Below, piece by piece: positions 50,770-64,000 of a stretch of DNA of 64,000 nucleotides (position 1 is its first letter; each line of letters begins with the position of its first letter). Position numbers and translations under genes: made by a program. The notes beneath the pieces were generated by a model that saw only the letters and a list, made by a program, of their open reading frames with translations, searched no databases and was not told the origin of the DNA. Source of the stretch: Lewinella sp. 4G2 (GTDB lineage: Bacteria; Bacteroidota; Bacteroidia; Chitinophagales; Saprospiraceae); assembly GCF_001625015.1 (NCBI RefSeq), contig NZ_LVWJ02000014.1, forward strand, positions 3,534,001-3,598,000, given 5' to 3'.

Positions 50770-50793
50770 GGAGACTGACGTGGTCTCCTTTTT
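50770..50793 (+). terminator. Terminator-like hairpin in the leader before the second SusC gene
   Basis: GGAGAC (50770-50775) and GTCTCC (50783-50788) with a 7-nt loop are followed by TTTTT, only 34 bp before the SusC ATG. It may end transcription from kdsB or act as an attenuator. The 420-bp gap 50407-50826 holds no gene I can support. Confidence 0.7.
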
Positions 50794-50826: not shown

Positions 50827-53800
50827 ATGAAAGAGATTTTACAAGCTCACGACGGGCGACGCTGGCGGGCCTTACCGCGGCTGCTTGGCGTAGCGGTCAT
50901 GCTTTTGCTTTCGACCGGTTGGGCCATTGGCCAGACCGTGTCTGGTACCATTTTAGATGATACAGGTTTTGGTCTCGTAGGCGCCACGGTTCTCGTGGAC
51001 GGTACGACGACCGGTACGGTTGCCGACCTTGATGGCAACTTCACGATCAAAGCATCCCCGGAAGATGTACTGATCATCAGTTTCACTGGTTATGCGACCC
51101 AACGGATCACCGTTGGCAACCGTAGCCAGATTGACGTTACCCTTGCTCCCGACGTTGCCGTTCTGGACCAGGTCGTTGTAACGGGTTACACCCAGCAGCG
51201 GAAAGGTGACATCACCGGTGCCGTTGCGGTTATTGATTCCGAAGAGCTGACCGCAGTTGCGGCGACTTCGGTTAACCAGCAACTCGAAGGACGGGCGACT
51301 GGTGTAAACACTTCCACTTCCGGTGCTGCCGGATCGGGTACGAACATTCGTATTCGTGGTGTTTCCTCCTTTACGTCAAATGACCCGCTAATTATCGTTG
51401 ATGGAGTTCCCCAGTTAAACAACTTCCTCAATAATATCAACCCGAATGACATTGAGTCCGTGCAGATCCTGAAAGATGCCTCCGCGGCTTCGATCTACGG
51501 TACGCGTGCCCTTAATGGTGTAGTGATCATCACGACCAAACTAGGTAAGTCCGGCCGCCCCAAGGTGACCTACGATGCCTACTACGGTGTGCAGGACCAC
51601 GAACGCGGTTGGGATGACATCCTCATTCAGAACCCTGAGGATTACGCTGAGATCTTCGTACGTAGTTACACTGACCAGGGCCTCCTCCCCGGTGTTGGTA
51701 CCATCTACGGCGACAACGGTAATACTGACCTGACCAGCGATTACATTTTTGCTTGTGACCAGTGTTTCACGAACGGTGAGGTGGACGAGTCGCTCTACAG
51801 CTACCCCAACAACCTGATCATGCGGGCCAACCGCGAAGGCACCAACTGGTGGGAAGAAACGATGGAGACTGCTCCAATTACTGACCACACCCTCGCCATC
51901 AGTGGTGGTAACGATGCGGGTTCCTACCGTATCTCCGCGAACTACATGGACCAGCAGGGTACGATGCGGAACACTTACTTCCAACGGATGAGCTTACGCG
52001 CTAACTCTCGGTGGAAAGTTGGCCGCCTGACGATTGGCGAAAACCTTAACATCAGCCGCGTTACTTCGGTAGGCGTCCCCGGTGGTAACCAGGGTGAGCA
52101 GGGTACGCTGATGCAGATTGTTAAGGCACAGCCCATTATTCCAGTATATGACATCTCTGGTGTCAACTTCGCCTCCGGTAAGACTACTGGCCTCTCCAAC
52201 GGTACCAACCCCGTTGCCCGTACGGAGTACAATAAGGACGATGTTGGTGAATTCGACAACGTTACCGGTAGCCTCTTCGCACAGTTTGAGGTGATCGACG
52301 GTCTGAGTTTGAAGTCTCAAGTAGGCCTCAACTACGGTGTAGGTGGTGCCCTTAACTGGGGCAACCCGACCTTTGAAAACTCCGAGCCAACTACGCAGAA
52401 CAGCTTCTCTGAGTACCTCAACCGGAGCTACAGCTGGGTTTGGACGAACACCGTGAATTACCAGAAGAATTTCGGTGAGCGCCACAACGTAGGTGTAATC
52501 GCCGGTTACGAAGCACTGCGTGATCGCTTCCGTGGTATCAACGGTAGCTTCGCTCAATTCTTCCTCAGCGACCTTTCTACTCGTTACCTCAGCGCATCTC
52601 TTGCTAACCCGGAAACGCGTAACGTGAGTAGTAGCGGTAGCGAATCTACCTTGCTCTCTCAGTTTGCTCGGGTGGACTACACTTTCGATAACAAGTGGTT
52701 GCTAAGTGCTACGGTACGCCGTGACGGTTCCAGCCGCTTTGGTGATGAAAAGTTTGCCATCTTCCCCGCAGCCAGTATCGGCTACCGGATCTCCGAAGAA
52801 GCTTTCATGCAGGATGTAAGCTGGTTGACCGACCTGAAACTTCGCGCTGGCTACGGTGTCGTTGGTAACCAGGATTTCGGCAACTACAACTTTGTAAACC
52901 GCTTCGGTGGTGGAACGGGTAGCACGTTCTACGCAATTGGCGGCGGCAACTCACTCGCTACGGGTTACACGGCCACGAGCCTTGGTAACGCGCAAACCGG
53001 ATGGGAAGAAAAGGCCACCCTCAACGGTGGTTTCGACGCTACTATTCTGGACGGAAAAGTTACCGTTGTGCTTGACCTTTACCAGTCAAAGGTCAACGAT
53101 CTACTCTTCAACCCGACCAACCCAACCACTCAGGGTAACATCGCACCTGCGTTCGTGAACATTGGTGAAATGGAAAACCGTGGATTTGATCTGGCCTTGG
53201 GCTGGAGACCTCAGATTCAGGATGTTAAATTCAACATCAGCGCCAACATCAGCCAGTACAATAATGAGATCATCGCTATTGACGGCGTTCGTGAAGAATT
53301 CTTCGGCCGTGGTGGTCAGGAGATTCGTATCGGTAACATCCAGATTAACCGCGTAGGTGAGTCAATTGCTTCCTTCTACGGTCTTCAGACGGACGGTATC
53401 TTCCAGAACCAGGCTGAAGTGGACGCTGCTGCCGCTCTGGATGGTGACCCAACCACTGCTTTCCAGGAGCAAGCCCGTGTAGGTGCCTTCCGCTTCAAGG
53501 ATGTTGACGGTTTTGACCCTGAGACTGGTATGCGTACCGGACAGCCTGACGGTGTCATCAACGATGCTGACCTTTCCATCATCGGTAACCCTCACCCCGA
53601 TCTGACTGCCGGTTTGAATATTGGTGTTGACTACAAGAACTTCGATTTCACGATGTTCTTCTTCGGTAGCTTCGGTAACGACATCTTCAACGCGACCAAG
53701 CAATTCACCATCTTCCGTCAGTTCGATACGAACGCCAGTACGGAACTGTTGACCAACTCCTGGAGCCCCGAGACGCCTAACAACACTTTGCCCGCGCTGA

Positions 53801-54123
53801 ACATTAATGATACGTACAGCCGGACGCCTTCCGATTTTTACGTCGAAGACGGGTCGTACGTACGACTTAAGCAGCTTCAGTTGGGCTACACCCTTCCGAA
53901 CTCTATCGGTGGCGACGTATTTAGCAGACTCCGCTTCTACGTTCAAGCCCAGAACCTGTTTACCATCACCGGTTACTCCGGCCTGGACCCTGCACTTTCC
54001 ACTTTCGGATTGGGTAACGGTAACAACGGTGGCGGTGACGCTGATGACTTGTTCATGGGTGTTGACAATGGTAACTATCCGACGACTCGCATCTTCATGC
54101 TTGGTGTGAACGCCGCGTTTTAA
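50827..54123 (+). CDS. SusC/RagA family TonB-dependent outer-membrane transporter
   Basis: A 1098-residue protein with a signal peptide (ending GWAIGQ). Then a carboxypeptidase-D-like domain (GFGLVGATVLVDGTTTGTV), a TonB-box-like VVVTGYTQQRKGDITGAV, a plug domain with VQILKDASAASIYGTRALNG, and a beta-barrel ending RIFMLGVNAAF. It should import a ligand captured by the SusD partner 22 bp downstream. Codons are strongly of the GGT, CGT and GTT type compared with flanking genes, which suggests high expression. The neighbours contain no glycan-degrading enzyme, so the substrate is open. Confidence 0.98.
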   Translation: MKEILQAHDGRRWRALPRLLGVAVMLLLSTGWAIGQTVSGTILDDTGFGLVGATVLVDGTTTGTVADLDGNFTIKASPEDVLIISFTGYATQRITVGNRSQIDVTLAPDVAVLDQVVVTGYTQQRKGDITGAVAVIDSEELTAVAATSVNQQLEGRATGVNTSTSGAAGSGTNIRIRGVSSFTSNDPLIIVDGVPQLNNFLNNINPNDIESVQILKDASAASIYGTRALNGVVIITTKLGKSGRPKVTYDAYYGVQDHERGWDDILIQNPEDYAEIFVRSYTDQGLLPGVGTIYGDNGNTDLTSDYIFACDQCFTNGEVDESLYSYPNNLIMRANREGTNWWEETMETAPITDHTLAISGGNDAGSYRISANYMDQQGTMRNTYFQRMSLRANSRWKVGRLTIGENLNISRVTSVGVPGGNQGEQGTLMQIVKAQPIIPVYDISGVNFASGKTTGLSNGTNPVARTEYNKDDVGEFDNVTGSLFAQFEVIDGLSLKSQVGLNYGVGGALNWGNPTFENSEPTTQNSFSEYLNRSYSWVWTNTVNYQKNFGERHNVGVIAGYEALRDRFRGINGSFAQFFLSDLSTRYLSASLANPETRNVSSSGSESTLLSQFARVDYTFDNKWLLSATVRRDGSSRFGDEKFAIFPAASIGYRISEEAFMQDVSWLTDLKLRAGYGVVGNQDFGNYNFVNRFGGGTGSTFYAIGGGNSLATGYTATSLGNAQTGWEEKATLNGGFDATILDGKVTVVLDLYQSKVNDLLFNPTNPTTQGNIAPAFVNIGEMENRGFDLALGWRPQIQDVKFNISANISQYNNEIIAIDGVREEFFGRGGQEIRIGNIQINRVGESIASFYGLQTDGIFQNQAEVDAAAALDGDPTTAFQEQARVGAFRFKDVDGFDPETGMRTGQPDGVINDADLSIIGNPHPDLTAGLNIGVDYKNFDFTMFFFGSFGNDIFNATKQFTIFRQFDTNASTELLTNSWSPETPNNTLPALNINDTYSRTPSDFYVEDGSYVRLKQLQLGYTLPNSIGGDVFSRLRFYVQAQNLFTITGYSGLDPALSTFGLGNGNNGGGDADDLFMGVDNGNYPTTRIFMLGVNAAF

Positions 54124-54145
54124 TTGAGATCTTAAATAATATACA

Positions 54146-55825
54146 ATGAAGAAATTACTAAAACTTGGCGCCCTGGCCGGCCTGTGTGCACTGGCCTGGA
54201 CGTGTAACGAGGAAGAATTCCTCGATACTCCACCGCAGGGCGTACTTGCGGAAACTAACCTGAGCGCTCGCGCGGGAATTGATGCAGCCCTGATCGCTGC
54301 TTACTCTCGTACGGACGGTTGGGCACAAGACTGGGGAACTGGAGGTTGGTCCGGCATGGCTGCCAACAATTGGGTCTTTGGATCCATCCCCTCGGATGAT
54401 ACCCACAAGGGTAGCGAACCTTCGGATAACGTTGCATTGCAGCAGGTAGAACTCTACCAATGGGCCCCCTCCATCGATGACTTTCAGGCGAAGTTCCTCG
54501 TATCCTACGACGGAATCGTGCGAGCCAACCAAACTATTCGTCTGCTGGCTGCCAACACCGATATTGGTGATGATGACCGGAACCGCCTCCTCGGTGAAGC
54601 TACCTTCCTACGTGGCCATTACCATTCTGAACTCTACAAGGTTTTCAAGAACATCCCCTACTTTGACGAACTGGAAATTGACTTCCGTAAGCCGAACGAT
54701 CAGGATATTCTGCCGAACATCATTAAGGATCTGGAAGATGCTGCCGCACTACTTCCAGCAACTCAGAATGACATCGGTCGCGCTACCAGCGGTGCTGCGA
54801 ACGCCATCCTTGGGCGTCTGCACATGATCGATCGCAACTTTGCTGCCGCTAAAACGGCACTGGACAAAGTACAGGGCTACGAGCTACAGGATTGTTACCA
54901 CGACCTCTTCTCCGTTGGTGGTGAAGATGGTTCCGGAATGATCTTCTCTAGCCAGGCTTCCGTAAACGACGGTGACCCCGCGGGTGACAATGCCAACTTC
55001 TCTATGCGTTTGGCTAACCCACACGGTGGATCTCCGATCGGCTGTTGTGGTTTCCACCAGCCTACCCAGAACCTTGTGAACGCTTACCGCGTCGATGAAG
55101 ATGGTCTCCCACTTCGTGACAACAGCTTTGACACCAATCCTACCCCCGATGAGTTGGTAGATCCCCGTCTTGACTGGATCGCTGGTCGTGACGGAATCCC
55201 CTTCCTAAACTGGGGTACGCACGCTCCGGGTTGGGTACGTGACCGTGGTTACTCTTCCGAGTACAACACGAAGAAGTTCAACCAGGCTGACGGATTCTCT
55301 TCCAATGTAGGCTGGGTAGCGAATCAGTTGAGCCCAATTAACGTACCAATTATCCGCTACGCTGATGTCATCCTTATGCTCGCTGAGATCGACGTTGAGA
55401 ACGGCGACCTGGAAGCTGCCCGTGCAAAAGTGAATCAAATTCGTGAGCGCGCCGGCAATTGTGCTCAAGGCGCCGATGAAGTCCCCGTACCGATTGATGA
55501 TCCTAGCACCGTGCAATCCTACGCCGTGGGTACGTACGATGATGCATGGACCGATCAGGATGATGCCCGCGAAGCGGTACGTCTCGAGCGCCGTCTCGAA
55601 CTTGCTTTCGAAGGCCACCGTCTGTTTGACCTCCGCCGCTACGGACAGGACTACTTCATCAATACGATGGAGGACTACTTTGACGTAGAGGAGGACCGCC
55701 GCCCCTTCCTGCAGGCTCGCAACGAAGTGCAGGCCCGCCACATGCTTTTCCCGATCCCTACTCAGGCTATTCAGCTGAGTTTGGTCGACGGAGAGCCTAC
55801 GCTCCGCCAGAACCCAGGTTACTAG
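54146..55825 (+). CDS. SusD/RagB family outer-membrane lipoprotein
   Basis: A 559-residue lipoprotein (lipobox LAWTCNEEEFLDTPP, Cys about 20). SusD hallmarks: ATFLRGHYHSELYKVFKNIPYF, PIIRYADVILMLAEIDVENG, RLERRLELAFEGHRLFDLRR and the ending RQNPGY. It is the partner of the SusC gene just upstream. It shares the GGT/CGT-type codon preference of that gene. A hairpin follows the stop at 55853, separating the pair from the FG-GAP genes at least partly. Confidence 0.97.
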   Translation: MKKLLKLGALAGLCALAWTCNEEEFLDTPPQGVLAETNLSARAGIDAALIAAYSRTDGWAQDWGTGGWSGMAANNWVFGSIPSDDTHKGSEPSDNVALQQVELYQWAPSIDDFQAKFLVSYDGIVRANQTIRLLAANTDIGDDDRNRLLGEATFLRGHYHSELYKVFKNIPYFDELEIDFRKPNDQDILPNIIKDLEDAAALLPATQNDIGRATSGAANAILGRLHMIDRNFAAAKTALDKVQGYELQDCYHDLFSVGGEDGSGMIFSSQASVNDGDPAGDNANFSMRLANPHGGSPIGCCGFHQPTQNLVNAYRVDEDGLPLRDNSFDTNPTPDELVDPRLDWIAGRDGIPFLNWGTHAPGWVRDRGYSSEYNTKKFNQADGFSSNVGWVANQLSPINVPIIRYADVILMLAEIDVENGDLEAARAKVNQIRERAGNCAQGADEVPVPIDDPSTVQSYAVGTYDDAWTDQDDAREAVRLERRLELAFEGHRLFDLRRYGQDYFINTMEDYFDVEEDRRPFLQARNEVQARHMLFPIPTQAIQLSLVDGEPTLRQNPGY

Positions 55826-55852
55826 GTTCCAGCTTATCCTAATCGGATAATG

Positions 55853-55886
55853 AAGCCCTCCATTCGCTCCGGCGGATGGGGGGCTT
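55853..55886 (+). terminator. Hairpin after the second SusD gene
   Basis: AAGCCCTCCATTCG and CGGATGGGGGGCTT pair around CTCCGG, 28 bp past the SusD stop, with a short T-rich tail (CTTCTTAC). It is a probable terminator. Confidence 0.75.
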
Positions 55887-55949
55887 CTTACTTTATGGGT
55901 TGCACTACACCCCGAGTTGCCTTCCTCACTACCCGGTTATCTTTACGCC

Positions 55950-57437
55950 ATGAGCTACCCTAGTTCTTTAGGTATTCACATTTGTGGTTGGCTACTCATC
56001 GTATGTTGCAGTGCCTGCGCCTTCGAAGCTGACGATTGGTCAGTAGAGATTCCCGCCATCGGCTCGTCTTCGTCTCCGGTAGCAGTCGACTTAAATGATG
56101 ACGGGCATCTCGACATCGTGATGGGTGGGGCGGCGAAAGAATTTACCAGCTTGGAAAATGCCGTGCTCGCTATTGACGGACGGGACGGCCACTTACTCTG
56201 GCAAGTACCGGGTCACAATCAGATCGTAGGTTCCGCCATATTGCAGGACATTACGAACGACGGTATACAGGACGTATTCATCGGAGGGCGCTCGGCAATG
56301 TTCAAGGCAATTGATGGCCAATCAGGTGCGGTACTATGGGAATTCCTGCCCTACGACGCTACGTTGGATTACGTCAACGACACTACCCTACTCAATTTTT
56401 TCACCCCGCAGTGGGTAGATGATCAGGATGAGGACGGGTACGACGATCTACTTTCCGCATACGGAGGGTTTGTCAAAGCCAGGCCGGGTGACACCTTAAG
56501 GCCAGCAGGATACCTGATGGTTTTAAGTGGGAAAACTGGCCAGGTAATTGCCAAGGCCATGGTCACGGATGGCAAGGAAACCTACGTTTCTCCGTTGATA
56601 CATGACTTCGGTAATGGCCCCGAAGTCATCTACGGTACGGGTGGAGAGGACATCAGTGGCAACCTTTACCGAGTTAGCCTTAACGACGTATTATCTGAAG
56701 ACCTTAGCTCATCAAACATAGTGGCAAGGGGCGGCACTAAAGGAATGATTGCCCCACCGCTGCTGACCGATGTCAACATGGACGGAACGACGGATATCGT
56801 TGTTGCCTCGGTGGATGGCCGCGTCATTGCCGTCGACGGGCGTACCAACCAGAGAATTTGGGAAACGGGCCCAGAAGGGGATTTCGACACCTACGTCATG
56901 CCCGCACCGGGGTACTTCTACGGTGACGACGATACGCCCGATTTTTTCGCCAGCTTCGGCCGCGGTGCGTGGCCGGATACGGAGTTCACCGTTCATACGC
57001 TGATTGACGGAAAGACTGGTACCATTGTGTTTCAGGACACCCTCGGCAGTTTCCAGTATGCCTCACCGGTGGTGGCAGACTTTACGAATGATGGCCGGCC
57101 GGACGTCTTGCTCAGCATTAATGACATCCTGGTGGACTCCACCGCGTACGGGAGTAATAACTTAAGAAGGAACCAACTCTACGTCTTTCCTAATGGGCAG
57201 GGGCCTCCCCGACTAGCCAACGCCTCTGAATTGGGCACCAACTTAGGCTCCACTCCATTGCTGACCGATCTCGACCACGACGGGAAGCTCGACCTAATCA
57301 CCGTGAATATGGCTGACCCGCTCGAATTTTACTCCTTCAAAAACATCCGGATCACCCGCCGAGAGTTGAACCTGCCGGCTGATCGCATCAGCTTCGGGGA
57401 GTACATGGGCACTAATCGCAAAGGTTACTTCCAATAA
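55950..57437 (+). CDS. FG-GAP/VCBS repeat lipoprotein with PQQ-like propeller features
   Basis: About 495 residues from the ATG at 55950; a TTG at 55917 is possible but gives no family-like start. Lipobox near VCCSAC. The body is a beta-propeller with repeated Asp-rich calcium loops: DLNDDGHLDIVMGG, DITNDGIQDVFIGG, DVNMDGTTDIVVAS, DFTNDGRPDVLL and DLDHDGKLDLIT. They alternate with AIDGRDGHLLWQVPG-type segments like PQQ-dehydrogenase propellers. It is likely an outer-membrane surface or periplasmic calcium-binding protein, with no enzyme motif. It ends 5 bp before the next gene, so the two are tightly coupled. Confidence 0.88.
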   Translation: MSYPSSLGIHICGWLLIVCCSACAFEADDWSVEIPAIGSSSSPVAVDLNDDGHLDIVMGGAAKEFTSLENAVLAIDGRDGHLLWQVPGHNQIVGSAILQDITNDGIQDVFIGGRSAMFKAIDGQSGAVLWEFLPYDATLDYVNDTTLLNFFTPQWVDDQDEDGYDDLLSAYGGFVKARPGDTLRPAGYLMVLSGKTGQVIAKAMVTDGKETYVSPLIHDFGNGPEVIYGTGGEDISGNLYRVSLNDVLSEDLSSSNIVARGGTKGMIAPPLLTDVNMDGTTDIVVASVDGRVIAVDGRTNQRIWETGPEGDFDTYVMPAPGYFYGDDDTPDFFASFGRGAWPDTEFTVHTLIDGKTGTIVFQDTLGSFQYASPVVADFTNDGRPDVLLSINDILVDSTAYGSNNLRRNQLYVFPNGQGPPRLANASELGTNLGSTPLLTDLDHDGKLDLITVNMADPLEFYSFKNIRITRRELNLPADRISFGEYMGTNRKGYFQ

Positions 57438-57442
57438 TAACT

Positions 57443-58921
57443 ATGAAGAGCCTATTCTTACTTGCCGGACTGACGGCTTTGCTACTGTCACTAGCATACT
57501 GTACGTCAACCGAACCGACTTCAACGGAGGCGCAATTGGCCGAAATCCACTGCGGTAATTGCCACGCCACCCCTACTCCCGATTTGCTCACAAAGGAGAT
57601 TTGGATCTCCAAAGTCATGCCACTGATGGGAGCCTACCTGGGTGTTTACGAAGTACACGATCGGGACTTTTACTTAAAGGATGAGTTGGAGCGTCCTTAC
57701 CTGGAAACGGTCTTCCCGGCTGATCCCGCTATCCCGGATAGCACTTGGAGGGCCTTGAAAAATTACTTCATCGAGGGGGCGCCGAACGCCCTTCCGCTTC
57801 CCGAGGAGGTACCAACCGTTTACGCCCAGAATCGCTTCACCATTAGGGAGATCACGGACCCGGCGGTTACCCCGGCCCCATCGCTTAGCACCTGCGTCAG
57901 CGCCCAAACTGAGGAAGGGTTTGCCTTAGCAACGCTATTTCGAGAGGGTAAGAGCCTAGTGAGAAATTTCGACGGGCGGGGTCGCGTAACGAATACAGAT
58001 ACCCTCAGCAGCGCCGTATCTCAGTTGCCCAGTGCGTTTGGTGATGCTCACCTGATGATGGGAAGCCTCGTTCCGTCCGATGTGCCATCCGGCACCTTAT
58101 CGGGGCAGTCGAGCAGAGAAGACAGTCTCCGAAGACCACTCGCATACGCTACCCTGGATCTCAATTTGGATGGGGTTATCGATACCGCCATTGCGGAATA
58201 CGGCAACCGTCTGGGTGCGCTTAGTTTGCTTACGGCGGGCGAAAAGCTTACGCTTTCACCGACGCCCGGTGCAATTCGGTTGCGCGTAGCTGATCTAAAT
58301 CAAGACGGACACGATGATCTTGTAGCGCTGTTTGCACAGGGGGATGAACGGATAGAAGTCTACTACGCAGGTGATGGCTTTCGACGAGCTAAACGCCTGG
58401 TCCGCTTCCCTCCAAGCTACGGCTCTTCCGATCTGGAAATAATCGACGTAGATGGTGATGGTGATCTGGATTTCATACACACCGCCGGTGATAATTATGA
58501 TTACCGCCCGATCCCAAAACCCTATCATGGCGTGCGGATTTTTTCCAACGAAGCGGGTGCTTTCACCGAAACCTACTTCTACCACCTGCACGGTGCCTAC
58601 GGCGTGGAAGCGGCTGATTTTGATCAGGACGGAGACGTCGATCTGGCGGCCATTGCTTACTTCGTGCCACCTCTGAACCGCGCCATCAAGGGCTTCGTGT
58701 ACCTCGAGCAGACTAAAGATTTGATCTTTCGAGCAAGCGGTTTTGAGAAGCCGGTAGATCAACACTTCATCGTGATGGACAAAGGTGACGTAGATGGAGA
58801 CGGCGACCTGGATCTTGTCATTGGGAACTTCGCTGCCTACCTTCCGGACGGCTTCCCCGATCTCCGCCGGCCCGCCGATCGTAAGCCAGCCGCCATCGTG
58901 CTGACGAACACCCTAAAATGA
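57443..58921 (+). CDS. Lipoprotein with a c-type haem motif and FG-GAP/VCBS repeats
   Basis: A 492-residue lipoprotein (lipobox SLAYC, Cys 20). Residues 37-41 form a CxxCH haem-binding motif (IHCGNCHATPTPD), and Met residues in SKVMPLMGAYLG could give the distal ligand. After a linker comes a propeller with DLNLDGVIDTAI, DLNQDGHDDLVAL, DVDGDGDLDFIH, DFDQDGDVDLAAI and DVDGDGDLDLVIG calcium loops. So it joins a small monohaem cytochrome to FG-GAP repeats, pointing to electron transfer at the cell envelope. The codons for STCVSAQ overlap an antisense copy of the dispersed repeat core. Confidence 0.85.
   Translation: MKSLFLLAGLTALLLSLAYCTSTEPTSTEAQLAEIHCGNCHATPTPDLLTKEIWISKVMPLMGAYLGVYEVHDRDFYLKDELERPYLETVFPADPAIPDSTWRALKNYFIEGAPNALPLPEEVPTVYAQNRFTIREITDPAVTPAPSLSTCVSAQTEEGFALATLFREGKSLVRNFDGRGRVTNTDTLSSAVSQLPSAFGDAHLMMGSLVPSDVPSGTLSGQSSREDSLRRPLAYATLDLNLDGVIDTAIAEYGNRLGALSLLTAGEKLTLSPTPGAIRLRVADLNQDGHDDLVALFAQGDERIEVYYAGDGFRRAKRLVRFPPSYGSSDLEIIDVDGDGDLDFIHTAGDNYDYRPIPKPYHGVRIFSNEAGAFTETYFYHLHGAYGVEAADFDQDGDVDLAAIAYFVPPLNRAIKGFVYLEQTKDLIFRASGFEKPVDQHFIVMDKGDVDGDGDLDLVIGNFAAYLPDGFPDLRRPADRKPAAIVLTNTLK
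57888..57906 (-). repeat. Dispersed repeat core inside a coding sequence (copy K)
   Basis: The minus strand reads TGGGCGCTGACGCAGGTGC, identical over 19 nt to the intergenic copy at 16572-16590. It lies antisense to the gene. Confidence 0.5.
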
Positions 58922-58955
58922 CGAAGGCCTAACAGCGTCCGGACGCAGAAATCCT

Positions 58956-58963
58956 TACTTTCG
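58956..58963 (+). promoter_or_regulatory. Weak promoter-like element before the ASPIC/UnbV gene
   Basis: TACTTTCG resembles the Bacteroidota -7 element TAnnTTTG and stands 23 bp before the ATG. No good -33 element is seen, so the gene may simply be read through from upstream. Confidence 0.25.
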
Positions 58964-58986
58964 CCCCGCATCATTTTAAACTGTTT

Positions 58987-61900
58987 ATGAATCGATCACT
59001 GCTGGCGTTATTCAGTTTTTCCCTGTTGTGTTTTTCCTGTGTTGACAATGGAACCGTTGATAATCCGACCTCAGAAAACAGCTACGTTCCGTTCGTAGAA
59101 TCGGCAACGGGGGTAGATTTCATTAATACCGTTACGGAGGGTGAGGAATTCAACGTCCTTTCCTACCGGCTATTTTATAACGGCGCCGGGGTTGCCATTG
59201 GCGATTTGAATGGCGATGGCCAAAATGATCTATACTTTGCGGCCAACCAGGGGGAGAACCAACTCTACCTTAACCAGGGGGAGCTCAATTTTCAACTAGC
59301 CGAGGGCGCTGCCGCAGGTGCAGGGAAATGGGCTACGGGCGTCACTACCGTTGATGTGAATGCTGATGGCCGAATGGATCTCTACGTCTGTGTATCGGGC
59401 AAAGACGATGGTGAAGCGCGGCAAAACCTGCTCTACATCAACGAGGGTAACAATGAGCAAGGGGTACCACAATTCACCGAAGCCGCAGCGGCCTATGGCT
59501 TGGCGGACCAGGGTTACTCCACCCAGGCGGCCTGGTTCGATTACGATCGGGATGGCGACCTGGATATGTATCTACTCAACAACAGCTACCTCAACCCCGA
59601 AAAGATCAACGCCCGCGGTGAGAACCGGAACGAGCGCGACGACGAAGGGGGCGATAAACTTTTCCGAAACGACGCCGGGCCGAATGGCCACCCGGTGTTT
59701 ACGGACGTGAGCGAGGAAGCAAACATCCTCGGAAGCCGGATCGGATTTGGCCTTGGCTCCTCCCTTACCGACGTAAACAGTGACGGTTGGACGGACATCT
59801 ACATCAGCAATGACTTCTGGGAGAGAGATTACCTCTACATCAATCAGCAGGACGGCACTTTCTCCGAAGAATTGGTGGACCGGACCGGCCACGTCAGCAT
59901 CAGTTCGATGGGGTCCGATGCCGCAGACCTGGATAATGATGGGGATACCGAGATCTTCTCTACAGATATGCTACCGGGGGATAACCAACGTATCAAAGCT
60001 TCAACGGTATTTGATAGCTACGACGCGGAGACCATCAAATTTGGTTTCGACTATCACCACCAGATCTTACAAAATTGCCTTCAGGTAAACGATGGCAACG
60101 GCAACTTCAGGGAAACGGGCCATTACAGCGGAGTGGCCTCTACCGATTGGAGCTGGGGCGCACTTTTATTTGACATGAACAACGATGGCCTGAAAGACAT
60201 CTTCGTTGCCAATGGAATCTACCGGGACATCATGGACCTGGACTTTGCCGATTTTCTGCAAGATAAGGAGCAACTGGGCGATCTCGTCCGAGAAAAGGGC
60301 CGCTACGACTGGCGGGACGTCGTTGAGTTGATGCCGCACAACGACCAACCCAACTACGCCTTCATTAATCAAGGGGAACTTCGCTTCGACAACGCCGCGG
60401 CCGCGCTTGGATTGGCCAATCCCTCGTTCTCCAACGGGTCCGCCTACGGTGACCTGGATGGGGACGGCGATTTGGATCTCGTCATCAATAATGCCAACCA
60501 AAAGGCGGGGGTGTTCATCAACCAGAGTAGCCAATCCGGACAGAGTTGGCTGGGTCTAATTCTGGACGGCCCCGAGGGCAACGCGGAAGGCATTGGCGCT
60601 AAGGTGACGCTGTACCAAGATGGTCGCGAGCAGACCCTGGAACAATTTACTAGCCGTGGATACCTCGGCTCCTGTGGCCCTGAATTGATCTTCGGTCTGG
60701 GAGATATCGCGGAAGTAGAGCGCGTCGAGATTCGCTGGCCCGACGGCAAAATGCAGACCATTAACCAACCCACCAGCAATACTTACCTGACCGTGAATCA
60801 CAGTGATGCGGAGGAGGTTCCCGCGCCTGACGAAGCGTTCGCAGCAGAACCTATGCTGGATGCGGCATATGATCTGCTGGATATCCCTGCCGTCCACGTA
60901 GAAAATGACTTCAATGACTTTGCGGTGGAGCCATTGCTACTACGGAAGCTTTCCGAAGTAGGTCCCGAAATCGTAAAAGGAGACGTCAATGGAGACGGAC
61001 TGGAGGACTTCGTTGCGTTGGGTTCCTGGGATGATCCGGACAAACTCTATCTACAGCAGCCTGACGGCACTTTCGCCTTTAAGCCAAACGGTTCCTTCGA
61101 TGCAACCAAGCAAAGGGAAAGCACGGCCGGAGCGTTTTTCGATAGCGATGGTGACGGTGACCAGGATCTGCTGATCGCTTCCGGCGGAAATGAGTTTGAG
61201 CGTGGCTACCTGAAGTACGCCGTCCGCTTTTACGAAAATGTCAATGGTGTACTCGTAGTCAATAATGTACTTGCGCCTCCGTACGCCGGAGGGGAAATCA
61301 GCTGTATCAAGGCAGAGGATATCGATTTTGATGGTGACATTGATCTGTACATGGGCGGCCGCGGTGTTCCTGGAAACTATGGTCTGACCGCTCAATCTTT
61401 CCTCTTCATCAACGAAAAGGGAAGCTGGCTAAAGATGACGCCGCGAGACATCGCCACGGCAGGATTGGTAACGGACGCCGTCTGGACCGATCTCAACACC
61501 GACGGGCGCCCCGACCTCGTCATGGTGGGTGACTGGATGCCCATCACCGTAGCGTTCATGCTCCACGACGGAGAGATCAGTGGCATCTTTGAAATCCCCA
61601 ACTCCGCTGGCTGGTGGAACACCGTAGAAGCTGCTGACCTGGATGGTGACGGTAAAGAAGACCTGGTCCTTGGCAATTGGGGGCTCAACTCTAAGTTAAA
61701 GGCCAGCACGGAGCGCCCGCTCTCCCTCCACGTGAAGGATTTCGATGGCAATCAGAAATCGGATATCCTCGTAGAGTGGTTCCCGCCCCACGACGATAAG
61801 GCTTACCCATTTGCGACCAAGAAAGACATTCAGGCCCAACTGCCCCACCTCAAACGGAAAACGCTGAAGTACAATGACTACGCGCAGGCTACCTACGAAA

Positions 61901-62337
61901 GCCTCTTCACGGACGAGGAACGCAGTGACGCCGAATCCCGCACCGCTACCGAATTGCGGTCCTGCGTAGTATGGAACAAAGGGAAAGGTAACGTCCGGAT
62001 TGAACCTCTGCCCTGGCAAGCTCAATTGACCTGCCAGTACGCCGTTGCCATTGGCGACGTCAACGGTGATGACCGGCCCGACCTCTGGCTAGGCGGCAAC
62101 CAATTTGGCGTCACCCCCCAGGTAGGAAGGCCGGACGCTGGTCGCGGCACCCTACTGCTGAATAAAGGCAACCGCGAATGGGAATACGTCGATAATCAAA
62201 AGGCAGGTGTCAATATTCCTGGCCAGGTGCGGGACGCCACCTTCATCGATCTGGCCAATGGCGGCAAGGGATTGCTAGTGGGGTGCAACGACGACACCTT
62301 ACGTACCTACCGCCTAAGCGAATACGCTACGAAGTAA
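58987..62337 (+). CDS. ASPIC/UnbV and FG-GAP repeat lipoprotein (CRTAC1-like)
   Basis: An 1116-residue lipoprotein (lipobox LLCFSC). The first half has VAIGDLNGDGQNDLYF, DVNADGRMDLYVCV, DYDRDGDLDMYLL, DVNSDGWTDIYISND, DMNNDGLKDIFVANG and DLDGDGDLDLVINN. Then comes an ASPIC/UnbV domain (about residues 540-610: EQFTSRGYLGSCGPELIFGLG, IRWPDGKMQTI), followed by a second propeller with further DG-rich loops. Family members are secreted calcium-binding proteins; the role is unknown. It is paralogous to the next gene, 61 bp downstream. Codons for EGAAAGAGKW coincide with a full 27-nt copy of the dispersed repeat. Confidence 0.93.
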   Translation: MNRSLLALFSFSLLCFSCVDNGTVDNPTSENSYVPFVESATGVDFINTVTEGEEFNVLSYRLFYNGAGVAIGDLNGDGQNDLYFAANQGENQLYLNQGELNFQLAEGAAAGAGKWATGVTTVDVNADGRMDLYVCVSGKDDGEARQNLLYINEGNNEQGVPQFTEAAAAYGLADQGYSTQAAWFDYDRDGDLDMYLLNNSYLNPEKINARGENRNERDDEGGDKLFRNDAGPNGHPVFTDVSEEANILGSRIGFGLGSSLTDVNSDGWTDIYISNDFWERDYLYINQQDGTFSEELVDRTGHVSISSMGSDAADLDNDGDTEIFSTDMLPGDNQRIKASTVFDSYDAETIKFGFDYHHQILQNCLQVNDGNGNFRETGHYSGVASTDWSWGALLFDMNNDGLKDIFVANGIYRDIMDLDFADFLQDKEQLGDLVREKGRYDWRDVVELMPHNDQPNYAFINQGELRFDNAAAALGLANPSFSNGSAYGDLDGDGDLDLVINNANQKAGVFINQSSQSGQSWLGLILDGPEGNAEGIGAKVTLYQDGREQTLEQFTSRGYLGSCGPELIFGLGDIAEVERVEIRWPDGKMQTINQPTSNTYLTVNHSDAEEVPAPDEAFAAEPMLDAAYDLLDIPAVHVENDFNDFAVEPLLLRKLSEVGPEIVKGDVNGDGLEDFVALGSWDDPDKLYLQQPDGTFAFKPNGSFDATKQRESTAGAFFDSDGDGDQDLLIASGGNEFERGYLKYAVRFYENVNGVLVVNNVLAPPYAGGEISCIKAEDIDFDGDIDLYMGGRGVPGNYGLTAQSFLFINEKGSWLKMTPRDIATAGLVTDAVWTDLNTDGRPDLVMVGDWMPITVAFMLHDGEISGIFEIPNSAGWWNTVEAADLDGDGKEDLVLGNWGLNSKLKASTERPLSLHVKDFDGNQKSDILVEWFPPHDDKAYPFATKKDIQAQLPHLKRKTLKYNDYAQATYESLFTDEERSDAESRTATELRSCVVWNKGKGNVRIEPLPWQAQLTCQYAVAIGDVNGDDRPDLWLGGNQFGVTPQVGRPDAGRGTLLLNKGNREWEYVDNQKAGVNIPGQVRDATFIDLANGGKGLLVGCNDDTLRTYRLSEYATK
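59304..59321 (+). repeat. Dispersed repeat core inside the ASPIC/UnbV gene (copy L)
   Basis: An exact GGGCGCTGCCGCAGGTGC followed by AGGGAAATGGG, so the similarity to intergenic copies extends past the core. It is read in frame as EGAAAGAGKW. Confidence 0.55.
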
Positions 62338-62398
62338 AGTTGCGGAGTAACTGCTCTCTGCGATTTACCCTTTTGCCTCCCACCCTAACTAAACGAAC

Positions 62399-64000
62399 AT
62401 GTTCCACATCGCCCGGCGCATACTGCTGTTCATTGGATTGGCCACCGCAACTACTGCGTGCGAACCGACTACGCCAACTCAGTTTGACCGGCTGAGCCCC
62501 GAGCAAACGGGGATCACCTTCACGAATGAACCGGGCGAAACGGATAGCTTCAATATTTTGACCAATGAATACATCTACAACGGCGGCGGCGTGGGTGTCG
62601 GGGACTTTAATCAGGACGGCCGGCCCGACCTATTCTTTACCGGGGCGGCCACCGAGAATGAGCTCTACCTCAACGATGGGGACTTTTCTTTTCGTAACGT
62701 ATCCACGATAGCCGGCATCGGTGGGGGGTCCCGCTGGAATAATGGGGTGACGGTAGTGGACGTCAATAATGATGGGCTACTCGACATTTACGTTTGTGCA
62801 ACCACTCGCCAGGCAGCTAAGGATAGGTCCAATCAGCTGTTCCTTAATCAAGGAAACGACGCTAAGGGTATTCCCACCTTCAAAGATGTTGCCCCTGCTT
62901 ACGGTATTGCAGACACTAGCCACAACACCCAGGGCGCATGGCTGGATTACGACGGCGATGGCGATTTGGACCTCTTCCTGCTCATCAACAAAATGGTTGA
63001 TAACAAGCGGCCGAATGACTTCAGTAATAAGGTGGATGACGGCTCCGGTTCCAGAACGGACCGGCTGTACCGACAGGACCAAGTCGACGGTAACATCGTT
63101 TTTACCGAAGTAGGTAAGGAGACTGGTATTCTAAAGCAAGGGTTCAGCCTCGCCGCAACGGTCTGCGACCTCAATCGGGACGGGTGGCCGGACCTCTACG
63201 TTTCGAACGATTATTTGAGCAATGACCTGGCTTACCTTAACGTCGAGAAAGAAGGGCAACGCGTATTTGAGGAGATCAGCTACGGCATCACCAAACACAC
63301 CAGTTACAGCGCGATGGGCAATGACGTGGCCGATCTTAACAATGATGGCCTACCCGATATCATCGCCGTGGACATGCTCCCAGCTGATAATCTGCGGCGG
63401 AAGATGATGTTAGCCTCCAACAACTACACCTACCTTATTAACCTGGAGCGGTTTGGCGTCCACCCACAATTCACCCGCAATACGCTGCAACTAAGCCGGG
63501 GCCTGCGGACGGATACCTTCAGCGATTTACCCCAGTACGGGGAAGTCGCCATGCAGGCTGGCTTGCCCGCAACGGACTGGAGTTGGACGCCCCTCGTCGC
63601 TGATTTCGACCTCGACGGGATCAAGGACATCATCATCACAAATGGCTTCCCAAGAGACATTACGGATAAGGACTTTGGGGATTACAACGTCACCAATAGT
63701 CGGTACCTCAGCCCGGGAGCCCTGCTACCTAAGATACCCTCCGTCAAAATTCCCAACGTGGCTTACCGGGGTGTATCCATCGCTGATGGAATGCCTACCT
63801 ACGAGGACGCCAGCCTGAATTGGGGGATTGACGTGCCGAGCTTCAGCAACGGTGCTGCCTACGCCGACCTGGATGGAGATGGCGACCTCGATTACGTCAC
63901 CAATAATATTTACGACGCCGCCCACGTGTACCGGAATAATACGATTAGTGGAGAGGATGCGAAGTTGACAAGTATTCGTATCGCGCCCGCGAAGGATCTG
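62399..64000 (+). CDS. ASPIC/UnbV-type FG-GAP repeat lipoprotein, N-terminal part, cut by right window edge
   Basis: An open frame from the ATG at 62399 to the window end (534 codons). Lipobox around ATTACEP. The sequence parallels the previous gene: NEYIYNGGGVGVGDFNQDG, WNNGVTVVDVNNDGLLDIYV, QGAWLDYDGDGDLDLFLL, CDLNRDGWPDLYVSNDY, ADLNNDGLPDIIAVDMLP, TDWSWTPLVADFDLDG and AYADLDGDGDLDYVTNN. The ASPIC/UnbV domain would be expected beyond the edge. It is a tandem paralogue in the same operon, 61 bp after the previous stop. Confidence 0.93.
   Translation, partial: MFHIARRILLFIGLATATTACEPTTPTQFDRLSPEQTGITFTNEPGETDSFNILTNEYIYNGGGVGVGDFNQDGRPDLFFTGAATENELYLNDGDFSFRNVSTIAGIGGGSRWNNGVTVVDVNNDGLLDIYVCATTRQAAKDRSNQLFLNQGNDAKGIPTFKDVAPAYGIADTSHNTQGAWLDYDGDGDLDLFLLINKMVDNKRPNDFSNKVDDGSGSRTDRLYRQDQVDGNIVFTEVGKETGILKQGFSLAATVCDLNRDGWPDLYVSNDYLSNDLAYLNVEKEGQRVFEEISYGITKHTSYSAMGNDVADLNNDGLPDIIAVDMLPADNLRRKMMLASNNYTYLINLERFGVHPQFTRNTLQLSRGLRTDTFSDLPQYGEVAMQAGLPATDWSWTPLVADFDLDGIKDIIITNGFPRDITDKDFGDYNVTNSRYLSPGALLPKIPSVKIPNVAYRGVSIADGMPTYEDASLNWGIDVPSFSNGAAYADLDGDGDLDYVTNNIYDAAHVYRNNTISGEDAKLTSIRIAPAKDL

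Follow-up and report, generated by a model that had tools for sequence, protein, structure and literature searches.

The window considered here is a stretch of 64,000 nucleotides from Lewinella sp. 4G2, a marine Neolewinella-type bacterium, and the locus of interest occupies positions 50827-64000 of its forward strand, where a SusC transporter and a SusD lipoprotein (together SusCD) are encoded with four propeller lipoproteins. The SusC/RagA TonB-dependent transporter (50827-54123; 1098 amino acids, aa) has an N-terminal carboxypeptidase-regulatory-like extension and a plug. It is followed by the SusD lipoprotein, the putative lid (54146-55825; 559 aa), which is of the Bt1762-type subfamily and contains the vicinal cysteines C300-C301. 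A strong intrinsic-terminator-like hairpin of 16 pairs (55852-55887) lies between SusD and the accessory lipoproteins. The first of these is an FG-GAP/PQQ-like beta-propeller lipoprotein (PQQ, pyrroloquinoline quinone; 55917-57437, 506 aa as listed from a TTG codon), and the second, HaemFG (57443-58921; 492 aa), is a CxxCH/FG-GAP lipoprotein in which a domain with a c-type haem motif precedes an FG-GAP propeller (about residues 130-492). The third, UnbV1 (58987-62337; 1116 aa), is predicted to fold into a CRTAC1-like propeller with a TTR/UnbV core (residues 30-607), joined to another propeller that spans residues 619-1116 approximately. Its paralogue UnbV2 (62399-64000) is cut by the window edge, as a preliminary description of this DNA had noted; the complete open reading frame encodes 1146 aa and ends at window-equivalent position 65839 (L004 12399-15839; L numbers designate loci).

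All genes lie on the forward strand at the positions given in that description. The intergenic gaps from SusC to UnbV2 are, in order, 22, 91, 5, 65 and 61 bp, which bears out its account of short gaps (5-65 bp) interrupted by a genuine hairpin after SusD. There are five lipoproteins in total, since a lipobox cysteine is visible in the sequences of SusD and all four accessory proteins. FG-GAP repeats are detected in all four of the latter (Pfam/NCBIfam), and the DxDxDG-type loops that had been reported for them number 4 in the PQQ-like protein, 5 in HaemFG, 12 in UnbV1 and 12 in UnbV2. These loops, together with the CRTAC1-like predicted fold, suggest that the propellers bind calcium. A further short hairpin followed by TTTTT is found at 50770-50788, 38 bp before the SusC start, and may be either the end of an upstream transcript or a leader element.

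The gene pair that defines a SusCD importer, a SusC/RagA TonB-dependent transporter with its plug followed by a SusD/RagB lipoprotein, is present. SusC matches TIGR04056 with 818 bits and the plug family PF07715 (Pfam/NCBIfam), and SusD matches PF07980 with 136 bits. By analogy with known pairs, the SusC channel with its SusD lid would import the ligand. The nearest solved relatives are Bt1763 for SusC (E 9e-148) and Bt1762 for SusD (8e-86 by profile), which form the levan fructo-oligosaccharide importer of Bacteroides thetaiotaomicron. In Bt1762, the fructan is contacted by D41, N43, D67, W85, the C298-C299 vicinal disulfide, R368 and Y395 (PMC7782687). When the mature Bt1762 numbering is shifted by 18 residues and compared in a profile alignment of 16 family members, D67, C298/C299 and R368 correspond to D94, C300/C301 and R365 of the Lewinella SusD; the vicinal cysteines are invariant in 16/16 sequences, and so are D94 and R365. 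Conversely, W85 and Y395 are not aligned to a tryptophan or a tyrosine in the SusD family, so the ligand need not be a fructan and the locus is not classified as a fructan importer. The known system is further characterised by the SusC ligand contacts T380, D383, D406 and N901 of Bt1763, and its polysaccharide utilisation locus (PUL) includes GH32 enzymes (PMC5967196), whereas none was found at the Lewinella operon, where the accessory proteins are UnbV propellers. Fructan-specific import was rejected on the unconserved W85 and Y395 and on the absence of GH32 from the 25 commonest flanking families, the tally being confined to those families. The likeness to Bt1762 and Bt1763 thus supports, at the level of homology, a carbohydrate ligand and not fructan in particular.

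UnbV1 and UnbV2 are the largest accessory proteins. UnbV1 combines an FG-GAP propeller with an ASPIC/UnbV (TTR-like) domain (UnbV_ASPIC, PF07593; 73 bits), the combination that marks the CRTAC/UnbV family. UnbV2 gives no match to PF07593, yet it is homologous to UnbV1 over its full length (35% over 1106 aa); the two had been described as ASPIC/UnbV paralogues, and the paralogy and the domain in UnbV1 hold, while in UnbV2 the domain is not detected. In the AlphaFold2 model of UnbV1 (mean predicted local distance difference test score, pLDDT, 82), residues 30-607 superpose on CRTAC1 (cartilage acidic protein 1; PDB 9etn) with a Z score of 36.5 over 462 residues, a root mean square deviation of 2.6 A and 24% identity, and the predicted second propeller is closest in fold to LGI1 (Z 32.7). 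By its homology to UnbV1, UnbV2 would likewise consist of a CRTAC1-type core and an extra propeller. A title cited in PMC13392082 describes CRTAC1 itself as a propeller-TTR core to which potassium ions lend stability. UnbV1 has the UnbV_ASPIC domain and, in the model, a core of this type, and it differs in being a lipoprotein, in its predicted second C-terminal propeller and in its place within a SusCD operon. Proteins annotated as FG-GAP/CRTAC1 family are also known beside hydrazine-synthase homologues, with other partner genes and in another setting (PMC12758564). In a tree of 87 long UnbV proteins, first-position and second-position copies fall largely into two separate clades, and the UnbV1-type and UnbV2-type genes keep the same order across loci.

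The two smaller accessory proteins are HaemFG and the PQQ-like propeller. The CxxCH motif of HaemFG, recognised in the preliminary description as a c-type haem motif, is present and conserved: C37, C40, His41, Pro44, Trp54 and Met62 do not vary among the 17 members aligned, and a wider alignment shows CxxCH in every copy except one that is truncated. Met62 may be the second haem ligand. In the predicted structure (pLDDT 86), C37-x-x-C40-H41 lies in an N-terminal helical domain and the propeller begins at about residue 130. The fold comparison, which covers the propeller (residues 129-492), yields integrin alpha, CRTAC1 and aldos-2-ulose dehydratase; because integrins tie with the dehydratase, the resemblance to an enzyme is not specific, and a particular kinship to it was discarded. 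The call of a PQQ-like propeller survives narrowly, with a score of 28.8 bits against the PQQ_2 cut-off of 27.6. The protein lies far below every quinoprotein-enzyme model, and a PQQ-dependent dehydrogenase is ruled out (TIGR03075, 19 bits vs a cut-off of 480). Its true start is probably the ATG at 55950, as a normal signal peptide and lipobox then result; the listed TTG would be too far upstream.

HaemFG homologues also form a branch outside SusCD, found at six loci beside recurring housekeeping-like genes (L047, L048, L050, L053, L056 and L057). In L051 and L055, HaemFG adjoins a protein with two CxxCH motifs (a di-haem cytochrome c peroxidase, CCP_MauG, in L051) and a protein of 618-635 aa, which in L051 matches PhoX with a type IX secretion system (T9SS) tail.

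Family searches detected no carbohydrate-active enzyme (CAZyme), hydrolase or lyase from 50827 to the end of UnbV2, nor among the next genes. The operon had been described as free of hydrolases and lyases, and an ordinary PUL completed by a degradative enzyme just past the right edge is ruled out, as none was found among the genes that follow. Downstream of UnbV2 lies a gene for a 245-aa peptidase S24-type regulator and, beyond it on the opposite strand, enoyl-CoA hydratase, nitronate-monooxygenase-like and aldehyde dehydrogenase genes. A further SusC/SusD pair, separate from this operon, starts nearly 5 kb past UnbV2 (L005 706-9115); with it are encoded an IPT/TIG protein and a T9SS-tailed protein of 814 aa in which no Pfam enzyme domain is recognised.

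The gene order is conserved within the genus and in other genomes, which excludes a chance arrangement and leaves the idea of a distinct system standing. All six genes are present in Lewinella sp. W8. In N. agarilytica, UnbV1 and UnbV2 lie about 7 kb beyond SusC-SusD-PQQ-Haem. The PQQ-like gene is missing from N. lacunae and from N. aquimaris, and in the latter UnbV1 is not followed by UnbV2. A scan for the SusD subfamily returned 79 named loci in Saprospiria, Cytophagales, Balneolaceae, Gemmatimonadota and others. Among the 67 with at least 2.5 kb downstream, chosen by SusD alone, an UnbV gene occurs in 59, of which 46 have it on the same strand within 6 kb, HaemFG in 16 and the PQQ-like propeller in 13; on these counts the core is SusC-SusD-UnbV, to which the PQQ-like and haem proteins are optional additions. 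The PQQ-like family does occur, at full length, with SusCD/UnbV loci. In a sample across the class, SusC lies nearby in 11 of the 20 loci with an UnbV gene for about 1100 aa and in 0 of the 20 with one for about 600 aa (Fisher P 1.5e-4). No relevant description of a UnbV-SusD, CRTAC1-SusC, FG-GAP-SusD or VCBS-SusC association was found in the open-licence literature, in keeping with the earlier proposal of an undescribed system.

Several other observations were made at these loci. The host genome itself carries a second SusC-SusD-UnbV-UnbV locus (L006 6013-17700; C14:2462013-2473700), followed by a Crp-type regulator and a major facilitator superfamily sugar transporter. In Lewinella sp. W8, a glutamine-synthetase-family gene lies directly 3' of UnbV2 (L041 17976-19322). 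A TonB-dependent receptor and DUF4249 lipoprotein pair recurs beside SusCD-UnbV operons (L119, L128, L129, L177, L192 and others), and a TonB-dependent receptor cluster is present in 17 of the 79 SusD-selected loci.

The hairpin after SusD is also a recurrent feature. Under one fixed rule, the 150 nt that follow SusD contain a hairpin in 45 of 73 loci; the same rule gives 2/65 after SusC, 1/42 after UnbV1, 6/73 for stretches in the middle of SusD and 2/365 for shuffled sequences. Its position is conserved in most relatives and its sequence differs (L158-L236, downstream of SusD), and several loci negative by the rule still fold a strong stem there (e.g., L158, L161 and L173). Across the class, 6 of 9 other SusCD-UnbV loci also have a hairpin after SusD, as does the second locus of the host genome. 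It is likely that the hairpin causes partial termination, whereby SusCD would be made in excess of the accessory proteins.

The nature of the ligand is suggested by the genes that accompany the operon in relatives. Among 86 proteins encoded by co-directional neighbours, the leading groups are those with an FGGY_C domain (12), xylose isomerase-like proteins (5) and members of glycoside hydrolase family 3 (GH3; 4). Both xylose isomerases tested pass the TIGR02630 cut-off; the best model is xylulokinase for the three FGGY kinases tested and beta-xylosidase for the GH3 protein tested, each below its cut-off. An FGGY kinase is found in 9 of the 79 loci vs 0.58 expected (Poisson P 1e-8, without correction for phylogeny), the expectation being 0.449 per Mb in 150 genomes of the family multiplied by the 1.30 Mb of the 79 loci, which include other phyla. 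In N. lacunae, the operon lies between an upstream L-arabinose isomerase gene and a downstream gene for a hybrid two-component regulator. The FGGY kinase, xylose isomerase, GH3 and L-arabinose isomerase neighbours make a pentose-containing oligosaccharide the leading guess, and a xylose- or arabinose-containing oligosaccharide is put forward tentatively as the substrate. The preliminary description had favoured a substrate other than a glycan; this is not supported, given the relationship of SusC and SusD to a levan fructo-oligosaccharide importer and the pentose and oligosaccharide catabolism flanking the relatives. Nothing usable on links to a 3-keto-sugar pathway was found in the open-licence literature.

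The locus is thus real, conserved and built from known families, and it is a variant of the SusCD uptake loci. With a classical PUL it shares the SusC/SusD pair, the co-directional lipoproteins and, in N. lacunae, the adjoining hybrid two-component regulator; it differs in that the Lewinella operon encodes no CAZyme. It is probably, though by no means securely, a SusCD oligosaccharide importer in which calcium-rich propeller lipoproteins stand in place of surface CAZymes. The SusC channel and SusD lid would take up an oligosaccharide in the pedal-bin manner of Bt1763/Bt1762, and the propellers would most likely capture or present the substrate beside SusCD at the cell surface, as surface glycan-binding proteins do, with calcium stabilising their loops. 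In this operon and in some relatives, a PQQ-like and a single-haem propeller are added. Enzymes from genes at other sites would then degrade the oligosaccharide in the periplasm or cytosol; in relatives these are often a GH3 beta-xylosidase-like enzyme, xylose isomerase, FGGY kinase or arabinose isomerase. The hairpin would raise the output of SusCD over that of the accessory proteins. The haem domain may exchange electrons with an oxidoreductase whose gene lies outside the operon, and this is the weakest part of the proposed mechanism.

Several points weigh against this oligosaccharide importer. In the window itself no sugar-catabolic gene adjoins the operon, and the sugar argument is drawn from relatives, most with a SusD only about 45-60% identical; the enrichment figures carry no correction for common descent of the loci. 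The missing counterparts of W85 and Y395 set the SusD apart from its closest solved relative, and long UnbV genes lie away from SusC in 9 of the 20 sampled loci. That the propellers bind or capture the substrate is something we infer, and the haem protein may serve another purpose, given its separate branch away from SusCD.

Among the alternatives, a surface redox machine is unlikely, although it has the haem protein on its side: the haem lipoprotein and the propellers would oxidise the substrate, converting a sugar into an aldonate or keto sugar for instance, and SusCD would then import the product. CxxCH and Met62 are invariant in the HaemFG family, in relatives GMC oxidoreductases occur in 3 loci and Gfo/Idh oxidoreductases, multi-haem proteins or DUF7133 proteins are also encoded nearby, and aldos-2-ulose dehydratase is among the folds that the HaemFG propeller resembles. 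However, integrins match that propeller equally well, the PQQ-like protein falls short of the quinoprotein-enzyme models, and about three quarters of the SusD-selected loci have no HaemFG. The preliminary description had likewise allowed for oxidation of the substrate, for which the conserved haem motif is the sole basis, and no oxidoreductase is encoded in the operon. It is similarly doubtful that the locus represents a distinct class of SusCD transporter, in which a sugar would be captured and chemically altered ahead of its import by a calcium- and redox-dependent surface complex of paired CRTAC1-type double propellers, sometimes joined by a c-haem propeller.

Less probable again is that the UnbV proteins are CAZymes not yet described, propeller lyases or hydrolases, which would make the locus an ordinary PUL. 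Beta-propellers host several lyase and hydrolase families, the UnbV genes stand where PULs place surface enzymes, and many D, N, W and H positions are invariant in the UnbV family alignment. Yet the invariant acidic positions fit DxDxDG calcium loops, CRTAC1, which to our knowledge is not an enzyme, is by far the best fold match, and the second propeller is closer to LGI1 than to any enzyme. The least probable reading, in which the lipoproteins are calcium-dependent adhesins for attachment to particles or cells that merely share a promoter with SusCD, is in line with their integrin-like propellers and with the adhesive role proposed for FG-GAP proteins of marine flavobacteria (PMC2668756), but it does not sit well with the SusC-SusD-UnbV1-UnbV2 order kept across genera, the linkage to sugar catabolism in relatives and the proximity to SusC of long and not short UnbV proteins.

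Neighbouring CAZymes are the usual means of recognising SusCD systems and of assigning them a substrate, and the SusCD-UnbV loci, having none, would be skipped or misjudged. The variant with propeller lipoproteins is shared by dozens of other genomes, with representatives in Saprospiria, Cytophagales, Balneolaceae and Gemmatimonadota. For the orphan CRTAC/UnbV family, whose human members have no clear molecular function, it offers a bacterial setting that can be put to the test, with a partner, a location and a likely ligand class. If the calcium- and redox-dependent capture complex were true, the bacterial members of the family to which CRTAC1 belongs would be proteins that capture ligands.

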